Source: Pseudomonas fluorescens
Lineage (GTDB): Bacteria; Pseudomonadota; Gammaproteobacteria; Pseudomonadales; Pseudomonadaceae
Direction of reading: 5' to 3'
DNA length: 64,000 nt
Assembly (NCBI RefSeq): GCF_019212185.1
Contig: NZ_CP078138.1
Location: 4,074,501-4,138,500, forward strand
In this document: piece after piece, positions 1 through 58,188 of the stretch
How the letters are laid out: the number at the start of each line of letters is the position of its first letter
Numbering within the stretch: the stretch's first letter is position 1
Notes under the pieces: model-generated
The model's input: the letters and a program-made list of their open reading frames with translations, nothing else
Database searches by the model: none
What the model was told of the DNA's origin: nothing
Program-made: the position numbers and the translations under genes

Positions 1-599
1 CAGGTAAATGGCCTTGTTGCGTACCAGCCTTCTTCGCGGATCTTCACCCGTAGCGCATCAAAGAAAATGACCGGGTACATCGGCTCCAGCGGGCGCTGTT
101 GCCACGCGCCAATCTCTTCCATGACCTCGTCGGTCACAGAGCTGATGAAATCGGGCGAGACGTCCGTGCTGTACTGCTCAGAAAGAAACGCACGAATCTC
201 TCTGACCGTCATTCCACGGGCGTACATGGCGATGATCTTGTCATCGAAACCGGTATAACGGCGCTCATGCTTGGGGATCAGAATCGGCGAGAAACTGCCG
301 TTGCGGTCGCGCGGAATATCCAGGCGTATCGGGCCATCGCCGGTGAGCACCGTCTTGCCGCTCTTGCCGTTGCGCTGGTTGGTTTCGTCCTCCGGGCGCT
401 GCGCGCCCGATGGATAACCCAAATGGTGGCCAAGCTCGGCATTTAGGGCGCGTTCAATCAGCGCTTTCTTGAAGGCCGCAGAAGCCTCTTCGATCGCCTC
501 AGCGGTCATCAGTGTTTGAGGGAGTTGATCCAGCAGTTCCTTTGGAAGCTTCGGCAGCTCCCGCACCGGTTGGCGCTCAGATTTCTTTTTGGTTGGCAT
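1..599 (-). pseudogene. IS256-family transposase, 5' part, frameshifted
   Basis: Reading back from the ATG at 599, the frame is open (start MPTKKKSERQPVREL) and has typical IS256 transposase features: the conserved LGY box near residue 60, the NGKSGKTV segment, and the first catalytic Asp in the motif FFDALRVKIREEG around residues 180-190. Just after this the natural continuation (LVRNKAIYL) is found only in another frame. It would be restored by one extra C near 27-28, where GGC CTG is expected and only GGCTG is present. Translation would therefore run into an unrelated frame before the second and third catalytic acidic residues, so the element is probably dead unless this is a sequencing error or programmed frameshift. 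IS256 enzymes are DDE transposases of about 400 residues; only about the first half is in view. Confidence 0.75.
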
Positions 600-7540: not shown

Positions 7541-8464
7541 TCAATCCGGCACATCACCAGAAAAAGCTCCCTGCAAATGCCGATGCAACTGTTCGATATG
7601 CTCCGGCCCGATGCCGCAGCAGCCGCCAACGATACTGGCCCCCGCCGCGACCCAGGTCCGCGACCACTGCAGGTAAGGTTCCGGGCCCAGGTCGGCGCGG
7701 ATCTTCAGCAAGGTGCTATTGGCCTTGGCGTCTTCAGCCACGGCCGGGAAGGCATTGGCGTAGACCCCAAGCTCGATGTCCAGGCCCAGCGCCTTGACCA
7801 CCTTGCCGGCCTCGGCCAGTGCCGCGCCCATGACTTCCGGCTGGCTGCAATTGAAGAGCACCGCCGCAGCCCCCAACCCCGCCGCCACCCGCACCGCCTC
7901 GGCCACCGGCTCGCCGGAACGCAGGCGCGGCGGTTCGCCGAGGTCATCGCTCAAGGTGAACGACAGCCACAATGGCTTGCTGTCCTCGGACAGAGCTTCG
8001 GCCACCGCCTCGACCTCGGCGATGGAGCTCTGGGTTTCCGCCAGCCAGACGTCGACATAGGCCCGTAGGCCGGCGATCAACTGGCGATGGATTGCCACCG
8101 ATTGCCGGTGATCGAACAAGTCCGGGCGATAGGAACCGAGGGCCGGCGGTAGCGAACCGGCGACACTGACCACCTCGCCACTCTGGGTCGCCGCCTGCCG
8201 CGCCAGGCGCCCCGCCCGCTCGGCCAACGCCAGGCCATGTTCGGCGAAACGCTGCTCGCCGATATGAAAGGGCACCACCGCGTAACTGTTGCTGGTGATG
8301 ATCCGCGCTCCGGCACGGATAAACGCCTGGTGCGCCTGGAGCACGTACTGCGGCGCCTCGATCAAGGCCAGCGCCGACCATTCCGGCTGGCGGAACGGGG
8401 CGCCGATGCGCGCCAGTTCCCGGCCCATGCCACCGTCGAGTAACCGCAAGGAAGGCTGGCTCAT
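7541..8464 (-). CDS. Homocysteine S-methyltransferase family protein
   Basis: Cytoplasmic methyltransferase of 307 residues resembling MmuM/BHMT-type enzymes, which move a methyl group to homocysteine to form methionine. The fold begins LRLLDGGMGRELAR; the zinc ligands are the Cys in VLFNCSQPE (about residue 209) and the CC pair in IVGGCCGIGPEHI (about residues 286-287). The start MSQPSL at 8464 overlaps the stop codon of the upstream binding-protein gene (ATGA), so it belongs to the same operon as the betaine-type importer. That coupling suggests the imported compound, or its breakdown product, is the methyl donor; glycine betaine, a sulfonium compound or S-methylmethionine are possibilities, not conclusions. 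Confidence 0.85.
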   Translation of the reverse strand: MSQPSLRLLDGGMGRELARIGAPFRQPEWSALALIEAPQYVLQAHQAFIRAGARIITSNSYAVVPFHIGEQRFAEHGLALAERAGRLARQAATQSGEVVSVAGSLPPALGSYRPDLFDHRQSVAIHRQLIAGLRAYVDVWLAETQSSIAEVEAVAEALSEDSKPLWLSFTLSDDLGEPPRLRSGEPVAEAVRVAAGLGAAAVLFNCSQPEVMGAALAEAGKVVKALGLDIELGVYANAFPAVAEDAKANSTLLKIRADLGPEPYLQWSRTWVAAGASIVGGCCGIGPEHIEQLHRHLQGAFSGDVPD

Positions 8465-9510
8465 GGGATCGCACTCACTTTCGGCGCCGCGCCCGACAAC
8501 CATTGATCCACGGTACTGGCATGGTCCTGGACCCACGCCTTGGCCACCACATCCGCCGGCTGCTGCTCTTTTTCGATCTTGAGGATCAGCTCGTTGAGCT
8601 GGGCCGGGTCGATGGCGACATTACGCAGGAACTCGGCAATTTTCGGCGCCCGCTGTTGCAGGGCGGCGGAAGCCAGCACGTGGACCCGAGCATCCGGGAA
8701 GGCGCAGGTGATCTGACTCTTGTTCAGCCAATCAGGATCGACCGTCGGGCTGATGAATTTCCAGCAACCGTCAGCCTTGTACAGTGGGTCGCCCTTCTTG
8801 TTGTCCTGGGCGTAACCGTCGAACGCCGGCTCTTCGAGGCGACGCAGGTCGTACGCGGAGAAGATCCAGTCCGGGGTGTAGGCATAGAACACCACACCGC
8901 GTTCGGCCTTGTAGGCGCTGGCCAGTTTCGAGTAAGTCACCGAGGCTTCCGTGGAGACCGCCTCAAACTTGTCGGCAAAACCATAATCCTTGGCCTTGAT
9001 CTGCCCGATGTAGGTCGACTCCCAACCGGCTGGGCCCACCAGCAACTGCGCCTTGCCACCGCCCAGCGGCTCGAAGAATTTCGCCACTTCGGGCTTCTTC
9101 AGGTCATACACTGACTTGACCCCGTACTTGTCCTGCAAGTAGCCCGGGATGTAGAAGCCCTGCTCGCCCGCATAAGGATGGACGTTGGGCACCAGCGTTG
9201 GCTTGGCGCCAGTGACGTATTTGGCCCAGGCTGCCGACTGGTTGGGCAACCAGATGTCGGTCAGCACATCCACCGAACCATCGCCCTTGGCCGCTGCGCT
9301 CAACAGCACCGCGACGTCGCCGGCCAGGTACGAGACATCGCCATCGAGACGGCTGCTGATGACCTCGCCGAGGATGTTCTGGATCGCGATGGCACCGGTC
9401 CAGTTCTGCTCGCCAATGACGATTTTTTCCTTGGCCAGCAACGTCTGTGGAGCCACCAGGGCGGCCAGTAATGCGACGGCACCCAGGGTGCGTGATAAGG
9501 GTTTGTTCAC
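8461..9510 (-). CDS. Glycine betaine-type ABC transporter substrate-binding protein
   Basis: Periplasmic binding protein (349 residues, OpuAC/ProX family). A signal peptide (LGAVALLAALVAPQTLLA) precedes KEKIVIGEQNWTGAIAIQNIL, the family's usual first strand. Trp and Tyr residues in blocks such as NWTG, YAYTPDWIFSAYDL and DPDWLNK could build the aromatic cage for a quaternary ammonium or sulfonium ligand. The GTG at 9510 was chosen because GAGG lies six bases upstream and it gives a proper signal peptide; the frame remains open far upstream only as a shadow of the permease gene. It lies 14 bases after the fused ATPase-permease gene. Confidence 0.88.
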   Translation of the reverse strand: MNKPLSRTLGAVALLAALVAPQTLLAKEKIVIGEQNWTGAIAIQNILGEVISSRLDGDVSYLAGDVAVLLSAAAKGDGSVDVLTDIWLPNQSAAWAKYVTGAKPTLVPNVHPYAGEQGFYIPGYLQDKYGVKSVYDLKKPEVAKFFEPLGGGKAQLLVGPAGWESTYIGQIKAKDYGFADKFEAVSTEASVTYSKLASAYKAERGVVFYAYTPDWIFSAYDLRRLEEPAFDGYAQDNKKGDPLYKADGCWKFISPTVDPDWLNKSQITCAFPDARVHVLASAALQQRAPKIAEFLRNVAIDPAQLNELILKIEKEQQPADVVAKAWVQDHASTVDQWLSGAAPKVSAIP

Positions 9511-9524
9511 GATAAGCCTCACGT

Positions 9525-11591
9525 TCAGGAGTAGGTCGGGGCTTGCTTGCGCAAGCTCGATTGAATGATTCGATCCGGGATCAGCGCGCACAGGACAATC
9601 GCTGCGCCGGCGAGCATGCCCTCGCCGCCCTTGATGTTGCGCAACGCGGTCATCACGTCGTAGCCCAGGCCACCGGCACCGATCAGGGCGGCGACCACCA
9701 CCATCGACAGGCTCATCACCAGGGTCTGGTTGATGCCCAGCAACAACGAGCGACGCGCCAGCGGCAGTTGCACCTTGATCAGGGTTTGCCAGGGGCTGGC
9801 GCCGTGGGCGACCGCCGCCTCGACGGCATCCTTGGGGACTTCCTGAATGCCCAGTGAGGTCAGGCGAATCATCGGCGCCAGGGCGAAGATCACCGTGGCG
9901 ATCACCGCCGGGGTCTTGCCGACCGAGAAGAACGCCACGGCCGGGATCAGGTACACGAAGGTCGGCAGCGTCTGCATCACGTCCAGCAACGGCGTAATCA
10001 GCCGGCGTGCCAACGCGCGTTTCGCCAGCAGGATGCCGGTGGGCACGCCGAGCACCAGGGCAATCAGCACCGAAGAACCGACCAGCGCCAGTGTCGCGAT
10101 AGTCCTGTCCCAGAAGCCGAACAGGCCGATATAAAGCAGCGCGAGACTGCTGGTCAGCGCCAGTGCCAGGCCCGCCGAGCGCCAGGCGAGGAACACCAGG
10201 GCCAGCGCCGCGACCGGCCACGGCAGCCAGCCGAGGACATTTTCGATGCCTTCGATCACCGTGCGCACCGCGACGATGACCCCGACAAACGCGCCCTCGA
10301 ACGTCACCTGGGACCAACTGATGAATTGATCGATGCTCTGCGCCGTCAGCAGCAGTAGCTGGCGGTTGGCCGGGAACTGAAGTAAGGCGCCACTGGTATC
10401 CGGGGTGATCACCCGCCAGACCACCAACGCCTGGCTGACCAGCAGCACCGTTAATGGCAACAGCCAATTGCTCGGACGGGCGCGCAACGGCTGGGCACTC
10501 AGCGACAGCGCGGTCCAGCGACTGGCGAGCAGCAGCAATGCGCCGATCAGCACCGGCAACCAGGACCCGGCGACCAGCCCTTGGGCCAGCGTCGCCAATG
10601 CCGCGAGTTCGCTGGCAAAGCCCAGCCAGAACAGCCCACCCTTGCCCCGCGACGCGAGCGCCGCCGGCCCCAGCAACAGCGCTTGCCACGCGGGCAGACC
10701 TGGGCTGAGGCTGTGGCTCTGAGGTTGATCGGCGACCTTGGTCGGCTTGGCTGCCTGCTGCGCACTGGCGCCCGGCAGGCAATCACGAAAGAAATCCGCC
10801 ACTTCGGCGTCGGCGGGTTGCTCCAGCAGTTGCTGCGGCGTGCCCAGTTGCACCAGTTGACCCTGGCGCAGCACGGCGATCCGGTCGGCCAGGCGCAAGG
10901 CTTCGGCCGGGTCATGGGTGACCAGCAAGGTACTGATCCCGCGCTCGCGGGCCAGGCTGAGGAAATGCTCCTGCAAGTCACGGCGGATGGTCGGGTCGAG
11001 GGCGCTGAACGGTTCGTCCATCAGCAGGATGTCCGGCTCGGTCACCAGCGCCCGGGCCAGCCCGACACGTTGGCGCATGCCGCCAGACAACTCGTGGGGA
11101 TAATGCTCACCCCAGCCTTGCAACCCCACCGCCTGCAGTTGCTGGGCGGCGGCTGCATGCCGGAGCGCTTCCGATTCGCCGCGCAACTCCAAGGGCAAGG
11201 CCACGTTGTCCAGCACCGTGCGATGGGGCAGCAGGCCGAAATGCTGGAACACCATGCCGATACGCCGCGAACGCAATTCACGTAATGCCTTGCTGTTTAA
11301 GGCACTAATGGCCTGTCCTTCGATCAACACCTCGCCACTGGACGGTTCGATCAGCCGATTGATATGCCGCAGCAAGGTCGACTTGCCGCTGCCGGAGGTG
11401 CCCATCAGGCACAGCACTTCACCGCGCCGCACCTTGAGGCTGACATTGCTCACGGCCGGGGCCTTCGACTGCAATGGCCCATAGGCCTTGGTTACATTGC
11501 GCAGCTCAAGTACCACGTCGGCGTCACGCGCAGCCAGGGTGTCGATCGAGCCACGGGCGGGAGGGGTTTGAAGAATGGTCACAAGAGTCAT
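9525..11591 (-). CDS. Betaine-type ABC transporter, ATPase fused to permease
   Basis: One 688-residue chain combines both halves of an OpuA/ProU-type importer. Residues about 30-285 are an ATPase with Walker A GTSGSGKST, signature ELSGGMRQRVGLA, Walker B ILLMDEPFSALD and switch LVTHD. After a Gln/Ala/Pro-rich linker, residues about 325-688 form a multi-span permease with the EAA-like loop (EVPKDAVEAAVAHGASPWQ). In most bacteria these are separate proV-like and proW-like genes. No frameshift or internal stop is needed, and no separate ATPase or permease lies nearby. Start MTLVTIL at 11591; a GTG four codons further in is an alternative because the upstream ribosome site is weak. It is first in the operon with the binding protein and the methyltransferase. 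Confidence 0.88.
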   Translation of the reverse strand: MTLVTILQTPPARGSIDTLAARDADVVLELRNVTKAYGPLQSKAPAVSNVSLKVRRGEVLCLMGTSGSGKSTLLRHINRLIEPSSGEVLIEGQAISALNSKALRELRSRRIGMVFQHFGLLPHRTVLDNVALPLELRGESEALRHAAAAQQLQAVGLQGWGEHYPHELSGGMRQRVGLARALVTEPDILLMDEPFSALDPTIRRDLQEHFLSLARERGISTLLVTHDPAEALRLADRIAVLRQGQLVQLGTPQQLLEQPADAEVADFFRDCLPGASAQQAAKPTKVADQPQSHSLSPGLPAWQALLLGPAALASRGKGGLFWLGFASELAALATLAQGLVAGSWLPVLIGALLLLASRWTALSLSAQPLRARPSNWLLPLTVLLVSQALVVWRVITPDTSGALLQFPANRQLLLLTAQSIDQFISWSQVTFEGAFVGVIVAVRTVIEGIENVLGWLPWPVAALALVFLAWRSAGLALALTSSLALLYIGLFGFWDRTIATLALVGSSVLIALVLGVPTGILLAKRALARRLITPLLDVMQTLPTFVYLIPAVAFFSVGKTPAVIATVIFALAPMIRLTSLGIQEVPKDAVEAAVAHGASPWQTLIKVQLPLARRSLLLGINQTLVMSLSMVVVAALIGAGGLGYDVMTALRNIKGGEGMLAGAAIVLCALIPDRIIQSSLRKQAPTYS

Positions 11592-11869
11592 CGCCCGATA
11601 GGAAGGGAAAAGCTTGGAGCGGGCACGCCTGACGCCAAAACAGCATGGCGTCCCAGGCGCAGTACACCCTGACGACATAAAGCTAATCGATCTTAAAAAT
11701 CTGAAATAAATACTTTTTTGGAATTAGCTTAGGTCGATGGCCAGTACTGAATGGGAGTGCTTTAAATAACCGAAAGGAATTAACAAATAGATAATCAGTA
11801 TTTATCGATATAACAGATCGCGAGTAGGCTCAGCCCATCCCGTCATTCATCATCACAGTGAAGTGCCCC
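11592..11869. other. AT-rich divergent promoter region
   Basis: Intergenic stretch between the importer operon (minus) and the small ORF plus XRE-cupin regulator (plus). Notably AT-rich between about 11690 and 11815, with runs such as cttaaaaatctgaaataaat. It should contain both promoters and the operator of the XRE regulator, but I could not pick out a convincing palindrome. Confidence 0.5.
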
Positions 11870-12028
11870 ATGAAGCCGACAGCCCAACTCATCGATTTCG
11901 CCCGCTACCGCACACGCAAACTGGCCCAGCAGCGGGCACGGGCCATGTGGGATATGTACGCACTTCAGGCCACCGGGCCCGCCTTCAGCTGGGCGCCCAC
12001 GTCCCTCATTCGGACCCATCACGCATGA
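11870..12028 (+). CDS. Small basic protein coupled to XRE regulator
   Basis: A 52-residue ORF beginning MKPTAQLIDFARYRTRK, rich in Arg, Lys and Gln in its first half. Its stop codon overlaps the start of the XRE-cupin gene in an ATGA arrangement (12025-12028), which argues for real translation and coupling. No family is recognised and there is no signal peptide or membrane segment. The amphipathic, basic N-terminus could bind nucleic acid or another protein. The ribosome binding site is weak (gtgaag). It may simply be a leader ORF that sets regulator levels. Confidence 0.55.
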   Translation: MKPTAQLIDFARYRTRKLAQQRARAMWDMYALQATGPAFSWAPTSLIRTHHA

Positions 12029-12672
12029 ATGCCTTCGGCCCCCTGCGCTTTCTTGCCAGCGCCGATGAACCGCTGGAGGACCTGAACAATCTGCAAACTG
12101 CGCAAGAGGAGCCAATCTGCGATCGGGTCGCGCAGAACCTGCAGCGGCTAAGGGCCAAGCGGCACCTGTCGCTGGACGCCCTTGCCCGCCAGTGTGGCGT
12201 CAGCCGGGCGATGCTGGCGCAAATCGAATCCGGACGCAGCGTGCCGTCGATCAAGGTGCTGTGCAAAATTGCCAAGGGCCTGAAAGTCTCGGTCGCGGCT
12301 TTTCTTGAGCACCGCGCATTCGAAGGTGTCGCGGTGCTGTCCGCGAGTCAGAGCAAACGTCTGGTCAGTGCCAGTGGCAGCTTCGTCAGCCGCGCGCTGT
12401 TCCCGTATGACGTGGCACGCCAATCGGAATTCTATGAGTTGCGCCTGAGCGCCTTGGGAGAGGACCACAGCGAAGGCCATGGTCCGGGGGTCCAGGAGAA
12501 CCTGGTGGTGGCGCAGGGCGTGTTGGAAATCAGCGTCAATGATGAACGCTACCTGCTATCGACGGGCGACTCGATTCTGTTCTACGCCGACCAGCCCCAC
12601 CGCTACCGCAACCCCGCCGACAGCGAGGCCGTGGCCTACCTGGTGGTGACCTATCCGGAGCGGCTGGATTAA
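12025..12672 (+). CDS. XRE-family regulator with C-terminal cupin domain
   Basis: Cytoplasmic transcription factor of 215 residues. The helix-turn-helix occupies about residues 37-92 (LDALARQCGVSRAMLAQIE then GRSVPSIKVLCKIAKGL), and a cupin sensor domain covers about 125-212, including the GVLEISVNDERYLLSTGDSI strand pair and ADQPHRYRNP. This architecture is common in regulators of amino-acid, polyamine or osmolyte metabolism. It is divergent from the betaine-type importer operon, which is its most likely target. The start MNAFG is fixed by the ATGA overlap with the small ORF before it. Confidence 0.88.
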   Translation: MNAFGPLRFLASADEPLEDLNNLQTAQEEPICDRVAQNLQRLRAKRHLSLDALARQCGVSRAMLAQIESGRSVPSIKVLCKIAKGLKVSVAAFLEHRAFEGVAVLSASQSKRLVSASGSFVSRALFPYDVARQSEFYELRLSALGEDHSEGHGPGVQENLVVAQGVLEISVNDERYLLSTGDSILFYADQPHRYRNPADSEAVAYLVVTYPERLD

Positions 12673-12698: not shown

Positions 12699-13199
12699 TC
12701 AGCAGGTGCAGCACATCATCGGCATGCCGTTGCAGCTCATCATCATTGGCATGCCGCAGTCGTTCATCATTTTCATCATCAGCGCGCAGCAGTTCTTCAT
12801 CATGTCCATGTTCATGCCCGCCATCGGCATGATCTTGCACAGCATGCGGTCGTCTTGAACACTGCACTCCATCACGCATTTCATCGAAGGCATGGGCATG
12901 CCCATCACCGGCATCATGGCGCCCATCATCGGCATGCTCATGCTCGATGCCGACATGCACATCATGCTCATGTTGGCGCAGTGCATCATCATCGGCATGC
13001 CGCAGTTCATCATCATCTGCATCATTTGCGCGCTGTTGCGGAACATCCCCATGTCCATGCCAGAGGCCGGCATCATGATGCACAGCATGCCGTCGTCCAT
13101 CATTTCGCAGCTCATGGTCGCCATTATCATTGGCATGCCCATCATCGGCATTTGGCTGTTCATCGGCATCGACATTGGCATCTGCATGGCGTTCATCAT
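12699..13199 (-). CDS. Methionine- and cysteine-rich protein with internal duplication
   Basis: A 166-residue protein of extreme composition: by my count 64 Met (39%) and 15 Cys (9%). The sequence has two halves that align. About residues 29-82 contain MSCEMMDDGMLC, GMDMGMFRN, NCGMPMMMHC and MSMMC; about residues 105-166 contain CVMECSVQDDRMLC, GMNMDMMKN, DCGMPMMMSC and MPMMCCTC. The DDxMLC and CGMPMMM blocks are shared. No signal peptide is evident, so a cytoplasmic location is likely. The start is well supported: GGGAG sits seven bases before MMNAMQ. Abundant soft sulfur ligands suggest Cu(I) or Ag(I) binding or storage; an oxidant sink is the alternative. I recognise no named family. Opposite-strand frames are His-rich shadows of the same repeats. 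Confidence 0.75.
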   Translation of the reverse strand: MMNAMQMPMSMPMNSQMPMMGMPMIMATMSCEMMDDGMLCIMMPASGMDMGMFRNSAQMMQMMMNCGMPMMMHCANMSMMCMSASSMSMPMMGAMMPVMGMPMPSMKCVMECSVQDDRMLCKIMPMAGMNMDMMKNCCALMMKMMNDCGMPMMMSCNGMPMMCCTC

Positions 13200-13656
13200 G
13201 GTGTAGCTCCCTGAAGGATTGGAAAGGCAAGGTGAAGTAGATGGCGCCGATTCTAGGGACTGGCGAACGTACGACAAGAGGCCCATCCAGCAGCGGAAAA
13301 CACTGCGCCAACCGCGTTAATGCGATGACTTGCGCAGGAGTGGATGCTTTCGCTGCAGGGTGGATGTGATAACGGATAAATTGGTGACTGCGGCAGCGTT
13401 TTTGGTGTCGTGGATATGCGTCTTGTGTCTATCCAAATAACCCAGAGAAATAAACGGTCTAATACTGGAGTGGTTTTTTTGTGGGAGCTTGCAAGCGATG
13501 TACACAAACAGATCGCCTTCGCGGACAAGCCCGCTCCCACATCAATGATCATCGTCTTGTATGATGCGCCGCGTAAAAAATCAGCCGCATCGCGCAGTGG
13601 CTGACCTGTGCCCGGAGGTCGCGTGGCCAGGGATTTCAGTCATCAAGGAGCTTTAC
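13200..13656. other. Divergent region between Met-rich gene and TonB receptor
   Basis: About 457 bases holding the promoters of both genes. It contains a REP-like pair at 13481-13540 and an AT-richer patch around 13380-13470. I found no convincing Fur box or copper-responsive palindrome, and no plausible ORF. Confidence 0.5.
13481..13540. repeat. REP-like repeat pair
   Basis: Arms gtgggagcttgcaagcgatg (13481-13500) and gcggacaagcccgctcccac (13521-13540) face each other and could form a hairpin. Confidence 0.65.
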
Positions 13657-57612: not shown

Positions 57613-58188
57613 TCAAATCACCACATTACGCACAAACCGCACCGCCTCATCCCCATCATTGCGATACACATGGGTGAAATTGCTGGCGAAGCTGATGAAC
57701 TCGCCACAGCCCAGCACTCGCACCTCATCCCCCAGCACCAGGGTCAGGCTGCCCTGGAAGACATACACCTGCTCGCTCCAGCCTTCGGCATCGGCGGCAG
57801 ACAGGTAGACCTCGCCCGGCTCCAGTTGCCACTGCCACAACTCGACCTCACGGCTGGCGTTGGCCTTGGCTAGCAGCACCGCATGGCTGCCGGGAATGGT
57901 CCCGGCCCAGGCCAGTTCGTTGATTCGGCCTGGGTCCCGTGAGTCGGGGGCCTGGATCAGATCGCTGAAGGCCACGTCCAGCGCTTCGGCCACCCGGTCG
58001 AGGGTGGTCAGGCTGACATTTTTCTCGCCGGCCTCAATCGCCACCAGCATCCGCCGGCTGACCCCGGAGATTTCTGCCAGCGCGCCCTGGCTCAGCCCGG
58101 CGGCATGGCGCAGGCGGCGGACGTTGAGGCTGACATGTTGCAGGACCGAGGCGCGCTGGCCATTTTCTTTGTGCACTATATTGCTCAT
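57613..58188 (-). CDS. XRE-family regulator with C-terminal cupin
   Basis: A 191-residue regulator. The helix-turn-helix covers about residues 20-75 (LRHAAGLSQGALAEISGVSR then RMLVAIEAGEKNVSL), and the cupin domain about 115-190 (WQWQLEPGEVYLSAAD, VFQGSLTLVLGDEVRVLGCG). The target is unknown; it is convergent with the SDR and divergent from the antiporter operon. Confidence 0.87.
   Translation of the reverse strand: MSNIVHKENGQRASVLQHVSLNVRRLRHAAGLSQGALAEISGVSRRMLVAIEAGEKNVSLTTLDRVAEALDVAFSDLIQAPDSRDPGRINELAWAGTIPGSHAVLLAKANASREVELWQWQLEPGEVYLSAADAEGWSEQVYVFQGSLTLVLGDEVRVLGCGEFISFASNFTHVYRNDGDEAVRFVRNVVI

Follow-up and report, generated by a model that had tools for sequence, protein, structure and literature searches.

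The Locus

The window, the whole stretch of DNA analysed here, is a segment of 64,000 nucleotides from Pseudomonas fluorescens. It carries a gene for a protein extremely rich in Met, facing a gene for an XRE-cupin transcriptional regulator that is itself preceded by a small ORF. The features of the locus are collected in Table 1.

Table 1. Features of the Met-rich gene locus, in window coordinates.
Feature	Position	Strand	Description
Candidate operator copy	11765..11783	minus	TTAATTCCTTTCGGTTATT; upstream of small ORF and regulator; significance limited
Small ORF	11870..12028	plus	52 aa; ATGA overlap with regulator start; IDFxxYRxRK-like motif
XRE-cupin transcriptional regulator	12025..12672	plus	215 aa; convergent with Met-rich gene, 26 bp between 3′ ends
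Met/Cys-rich protein gene	12699..13199, including stop	minus	166 aa
Regions of Met-rich protein	residues 1–20; ~23–91; ~103–166		Met-rich N-terminus (low confidence); repeat 1; repeat 2
Shine-Dalgarno-like AGGGAG	13207..13212	minus	upstream of Met-rich ATG; in consensus of 104 aligned upstream regions
Putative sigma-70-like promoter of Met-rich gene	13250..13277	minus	TTGTCG-N16-TAGAAT
Conserved upstream block	13405..13463, approx.	minus	~205–265 bp before Met-rich ATG; TTAGAnCGATTATTTC...GGTTATT...GCATATCCAT
Candidate operator copy	13436..13454	minus	TTTATTTCTCTGGGTTATT; upstream of Met-rich gene; significance limited

By exact count, the 166 residues of the protein include 64 Met (38.6%), 15 Cys (9.0%), and a single His. 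The two halves align with a local score of 193, compared with 67 ± 9 and a maximum of 99 for 500 shuffles of the same composition. Lys and Arg are absent from residues 1–8, and the most hydrophobic 19-residue stretch has a hydropathy of only 1.08. Since the start does not resemble a signal peptide, the protein is probably cytosolic. These results bear out a sequence-only reading of the same DNA, which had reported the 64 Met and 15 Cys, an internal duplication, the lack of a signal peptide, and a strong ribosome binding site, the last being the Shine-Dalgarno-like element of Table 1. On the other strand, positions 12855–13214 (plus) hold an open, His/Ala-rich ORF of 119 codons, a by-product of the CAT/ATG repeats.

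The Family of Met-Rich Proteins

One search retrieved 18 proteins, a profile search retrieved 89, and a single-domain profile gave 328 matches at E ≤ 1e-6, 120 of them listed. Named sources of these proteins include Pseudomonas, Devosia, Chelatococcus, Rhizobium, Tianweitania, Microvirga, Sorangium, and Polyangium. A match at E ≤ 0.001 occurs in 64 of the 298 genomes of the genus, counting that of the window, so that the gene is present in about one-fifth of the genomes sampled. Sixty-two of these matches are full and strong. One is cut by a contig end (G206), and one is weak (G194; E 2.8e-4, 23% identity) and was set aside as false, tblastn having returned no match there.

The median pairwise dN/dS of the gene is 0.20, computed for 2678 of the 2701 pairs among 74 sequences, namely 73 of the 80 named Pseudomonas loci plus the window; a filter on start pattern and length left out 7 of the 81 genes. 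By this measure the gene is under purifying selection. The matches across the genus show that the ORF is more than an artefact of CAT repeats. The sequence-only reading had called for a homologue search, and had named absence of the ORF or disruption of its frame in close relatives as the sign that it was mistaken. What the search found is a protein family that is real and conserved.

The composition is conserved as well. Over the 74 sequences, Met makes up 41% of residues (range 37–43%) and 92% of the sum of Met, Leu, Ile, Val, Phe, Trp, and Tyr, with Trp and Tyr essentially absent; His accounts for 0.4% of residues, and each protein has 14–16 Cys. All 15 columns with a Cys majority keep that residue in at least 95% of sequences, and 10 of them are invariant; among columns with a Met majority, 47 of 71 reach the same level. 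C40 and C74 are invariant across 32 two-repeat proteins, and the equivalent Cys residues are near-invariant in single-domain relatives, which have one repeat following a Met/Pro/Gly/Asn leader of highly variable length. In the 132 recovered homologues of at least 80 aa and more than 30% Met, the median content of Met plus Cys is 46%. A metagenome protein, P0025, has 36 Met in 166 residues and keeps the two-repeat layout; it may reflect an ancestral or a relaxed state.

The Predicted Fold

The AlphaFold2 model, built from a 32-row alignment, consists of two β-β-α-β-β repeats, with block pLDDT values mostly of 87–92 in the repeats and a pTM of 0.68. Strands are predicted at residues 25–33, 38–44, 70–74, and 77–82, with one helix per repeat, placing C40 in β2 and C74 at the end of β3. 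The Met-rich start (residues 1–20) and the linker (residues 92–102) are of low confidence. A single-domain relative, modelled with low confidence (mean pLDDT 59), shows its elements in the identical order. Because two such repeats are predicted in a protein of 37–43% Met, in which Met supplies 92% of the hydrophobic and aromatic residues counted above, Met has, in the model, taken over the ordinary core residues of a folded domain.

The predicted fold has no convincing PDB or viral match. The window's protein has no match at default cut-off in Pfam, NCBIfam, PHROGs, or PADLOC, and its relatives have none in Pfam save one at chance level. No account of the family was found in searches of the open PMC literature. 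The family and the module it forms with the regulator match no known kind in the libraries searched.

The Convergent Regulator

The partner gene has the domain architecture of an XRE-cupin protein, as follows. An N-terminal HTH_3 domain (E 1e-13) and a C-terminal Cupin_2 domain (E 1e-11) both score above the curated cut-offs, as they do in the regulators of loci L112, L118, and L198. The longest ORF starts at 11863, and we place the start at the ATG at 12025. Read from there, the 215-residue frame is stop-free in 76 of 77 loci, L107 being the exception; a 269-residue query instead meets one or two stops in many relatives.

The 80 named Pseudomonas loci are the top-ranking ones among 141 recovered, which include strains of P. 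protegens and P. fluorescens. Clustering of their flanking genes gave one near-constant neighbour, the regulator, in 64 loci; the next most frequent cluster occurs in 23. In 77 of the 80, tblastn places the regulator convergent with the Met-rich gene, the two 3′ ends facing each other. The sequence-only reading, which had proposed a search for conserved neighbours, did not mention this partner. The three loci lacking it are L072 and L079, which reach a contig edge less than 250 bp from the gene, and L050, with none within 8 kb. The intergenic gap is 17–340 bp in 73 of the 77 loci and 1.0–2.1 kb in the other four.

The genus census gives the same association. The regulator (E ≤ 1e-60) occurs in 64 of 298 genomes, 62 of which also have the Met-rich gene (Fisher p ~1e-60 over the 298 genomes, phylogeny uncorrected). 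The four genomes with only one gene comprise two contig edges (G206 and G273), one decayed cassette (G183), and the false weak match in G194. In G273, going by coordinates only, the regulator match begins 33 bases from the contig end. In G183 (L114, 2539–3530), the regulator frame is broken, the Met-rich gene survives only as a short remnant, and a transposase-like ORF is nearby; to judge from these remains, both genes decayed together. In G149, the two genes lie 6.7 kb apart and are still convergent. Pseudomonas sp. QTF5 has two copies of the cassette, L075 and L107; in L107 the Met-rich gene is incomplete and the regulator frame contains a stop.

Outside the Pseudomonadaceae, the convergent pair is present in 7 of the 7 loci examined, which are all such matches of the searches: two Microvirga plasmids of one strain and five genomes of another order. 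The gaps are 53–164 bp in six of these loci and 1.5 kb in one, and the regulators are 45–48% identical to that of the window. In another genus of the Pseudomonadaceae, two genomes have the pair and a third match stops at a contig edge. The module is sparse: it was found in 8 of 398 genomes across the phylum, the window included, and in 5 of 297 genomes of one order, two of the five being already among the eight. From Pseudomonas to other Pseudomonadota groups, both the convergent arrangement and the XRE-cupin lineage to which the partner belongs are conserved.

Small ORF, Upstream Regions, and Candidate Operators

The small ORF is present in at least 49 of the 80 loci, with a median dN/dS of 0.23, and matches no known family in the family-library searches. 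Upstream of the Met-rich gene, the TAGAATC and CTTG of the putative promoter are within the consensus of 104 aligned upstream regions. Of 74 upstream regions, 72 contain a recognisable left end of the conserved upstream block, though the sequence of the spacer between block and promoter varies, and we infer that the block has a regulatory role.

A 19-bp pattern was drawn from the upstream block of the Met-rich gene and the upstream region of the regulator, and its only sites in the genome with 0 or 1 mismatch are at these two promoters. With up to 3 mismatches allowed, 37 of 60 loci have copies on the Met-rich gene side as well as on the regulator side, compared with 12 hits for 60 random windows. 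For a matrix made from the Met-gene upstream regions alone, the top-scoring site elsewhere falls in front of the regulator gene in 36 of 58 loci (1.04 expected if uniform; 22 of the 80 loci were dropped, the gene or site not being located), with control values of 22 for the reversed matrix and 16.6 ± 9.3, maximum 44, for column-shuffled ones. AT-richness accounts for much of this signal, since the controls also score high. When the two upstream regions of one locus were compared with each other, as could be done for 8 of 14 loci with 6 not located, the score did not exceed the shuffle maximum save at L198 (23 versus 21, 60 shuffles), which is GC-rich. Taken together, the sites suggest an operator shared by the Met-rich gene and the regulator. 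No Rfam element was found in the window.

What the Regulator May Sense

The module regulator is the genome's best match to 1Y9Q, at 89.4 bits, the next proteins scoring 43.2, 38.3, and 34.3; the identity is 38% over 168 aligned residues. The H, E, and H of the cupin site, which we take to be a metal-binding motif, are kept in 12 of the 12 module regulators aligned, an alignment from which three Pseudomonas regulators and three paralogues were left out as not located. A second 1Y9Q-like regulator, 29% identical to 1Y9Q, is encoded in the window at 57640–58128 (minus).

In PMC7901475, XRE-cupin factors are described as local repressors of adjacent metabolic genes that sense pathway metabolites, and 1Y9Q, from Vibrio cholerae, is reported with bound D-methionine. 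A table in PMC2684688 gives it as a Zn-bound dimer. PMC7901475 also has 1Y9Q as the template for all eight XRE-cupins of P. aeruginosa, and therefore its ligand may not carry over to the module regulator.

Neighbouring Genes

Genes for sulfonate or Met uptake, sulfonate monooxygenase, or homocysteine methyltransferase lie within ~8 kb in 39 of 80 loci versus 1 of 60 random windows of the same genus, for markers chosen after the loci had been seen and for loci that are related. For 13 loci with no flanking-gene cluster in common, 3 of the 107 flanking ORFs match PF13379, 2 match PF09084, and 3 are TonB receptors; the 102 background ORFs gave 89 families, and the 25 of these that were listed include none of the three. 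The 107 ORFs also include 2 SsuA_fam matches, and SsuA-like proteins, below the curated cut-off, occur near both Microvirga loci. These counts weakly favour a sulfur theme among the neighbours. In the window itself, at 7541–8536 (minus) and 9525–11678 (minus), a few kb from the Met-rich gene, a homocysteine S-methyltransferase-like gene is adjacent to an ABC transporter of choline/betaine type; together they might yield methionine by way of a methyl donor.

The sequence-only reading had placed the gene divergent from a TonB receptor. That arrangement is correct for this window; the receptor is not a conserved neighbour across the 80 loci, with a close relative (67% identity) in one and distant ones (22–24%) in five more. 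Among the annotated neighbour clusters, no copper, silver, or efflux gene was recognised as a recurrent neighbour. A Microvirga plasmid locus (L112, 3605–5151) has genes for an SCO-family protein and an SsuA-like binding protein near the Met-rich gene, the SCO gene being the only copper-linked gene recognised at any locus. Methionine sulfoxide reductase is absent from the neighbour families listed, which in one list are the first 25 of 89.

A Proposed Methionine Reserve

We propose, tentatively and as a possibility short of probable, that the Met-rich protein is a regulated cytosolic reserve of methionine and sulfur. The module would be self-contained, with two genes, or three with the small ORF: the Met/Cys-rich protein and the XRE-cupin repressor that would control it. 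The ligand of the cupin domain would be methionine or some sulfur metabolite akin to it, probably sensed together with a bound metal. At high ligand levels, the repressor would come off and the Met-rich protein would be made, absorbing surplus methionine in compact form; under sulfur shortage, proteolysis would return it. The conserved Cys may add sulfur and may hold or protect the fold.

Such a reserve explains the composition, with Met filling almost every hydrophobic position and hardly any His, as well as the lineage of the regulator and, weakly, the neighbourhood. Met-rich leaders of variable length and a median Met plus Cys content of 46% are what would be expected if Met content, and not exact sequence, is selected. 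The weakest point is the strict conservation of Cys: the Cys columns are kept more strictly than the Met columns, a pattern better suited to metal or thiol chemistry than to storage in bulk.

It follows that soft-metal binding stays the main rival. The protein would then be a cytosolic buffer in which the conserved Cys and the Met thioethers bind Cu(I), Ag(I), or similar ions, made under metal excess through the regulator. Cys is the most strictly conserved residue, C40 and C74 have counterparts even in the single-domain relatives, and the retention of the H, E, and H in the regulators would also suit a metal. We nevertheless think a buffer unlikely, though far from negligible, as follows. Met is a weak Cu(I) ligand in the reducing, thiol-containing cytosol, an all-Met hydrophobic core is unnecessary for metal binding, and His, which is common in known Met-rich copper proteins, is nearly missing here. 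There is also no recurrent copper, silver, or efflux neighbour among the annotated clusters, the SCO-family gene occurring in one Microvirga locus, and the partner is no metal sensor of a known class. The copper-storage function put forward in the sequence-only reading is therefore unsupported so far.

A sacrificial oxidant sink, in which Met quenches HOCl or peroxide and is recycled by methionine sulfoxide reductases, seems improbable. It would account for the very high Met content and would suit the Met-rich N-termini, which are of low confidence in the model and probably flexible; against it are the probable cytosolic location, the lack of a methionine sulfoxide reductase among the neighbour families listed (a non-exhaustive list), and the description of XRE-cupin factors, in PMC7901475, as answering metabolites and not oxidants. 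Still less credible is a role mainly as a sensing or titrating device, for instance one that gauges Met-tRNA through the rate of translation or one that binds and titrates the regulator, with the stored sulfur incidental: the tight pairing with one regulator lineage would fit, but selection at the protein level, a predicted folded core, and convergent genes with neither attenuation geometry nor an Rfam element in the window speak against it.

Returning to the methionine reserve, a broader proposal, which we hold with somewhat less assurance than the role of the protein itself, is that a dedicated store of methionine and sulfur, a compact protein with a near-all-Met core, exists in two or more bacterial classes, controlled by a cupin repressor that senses methionine and whose gene lies tail-to-tail with that of the store. 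As a store, the protein would represent a novel type of nutrient reserve in bacteria and reveal the way in which they bank methionine; as a metal binder, it would be a new cytosolic soft-metal protein. Either way, there is a predicted fold with an almost purely methionine core, and a protein–regulator pair in convergent order across bacterial classes. The regulator's ligand offers a direct handle on the function of the Met-rich protein.

Comparison with Known Systems

The module regulator is like the XRE-cupin repressors ErfA, PsdR, PauR, and 1Y9Q in combining HTH_3 with Cupin_2 and in having one conserved adjacent partner gene, as PMC7901475 describes for local repressors. It is unlike them in that its partner is a Met-rich protein and not a recognised enzyme or transporter, and in that the pair is convergent.

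As to the Met-rich protein, the sequence-only reading had set it apart from both four-helix Csps and classical metallothioneins, and we agree. Csps are cytosolic copper storage proteins that bind many Cu(I) ions in the Cys-lined core of a four-helix bundle. The Met-rich protein shares with them a probable cytosolic location, a wealth of soft ligands, and conserved Cys; in contrast, the AlphaFold2 prediction has β-β-α-β-β repeats where a Csp has its four-helix bundle, and Met far exceeds Cys. Metallothioneins are short, very Cys-rich, and without a hydrophobic core, whereas the protein of the window has 9% Cys and 39% Met in predicted folded repeats, and no Pfam match.

MrpX is reportedly a periplasmic methionine-rich peptide, proposed to be an oxidant sink and linked to a methionine sulfoxide reductase gene. 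The extreme Met content is common to both. The Met-rich protein differs in its predicted folded repeats, its conserved Cys, its different conserved neighbour, and a start that does not look like a signal for periplasmic export, with no Lys or Arg in residues 1–8 and no strongly hydrophobic stretch.

The nearest parallel in proposed role is with the Met-rich seed storage proteins of plants, the 2S albumins and zeins, which are likewise a protein store of sulfur amino acids. The window's protein is bacterial and ~39% Met, and the likeness drawn here is one of proposed role and not of ancestry. If the proposal is true, the Met-rich reserve would be the sulfur counterpart of cyanophycin.
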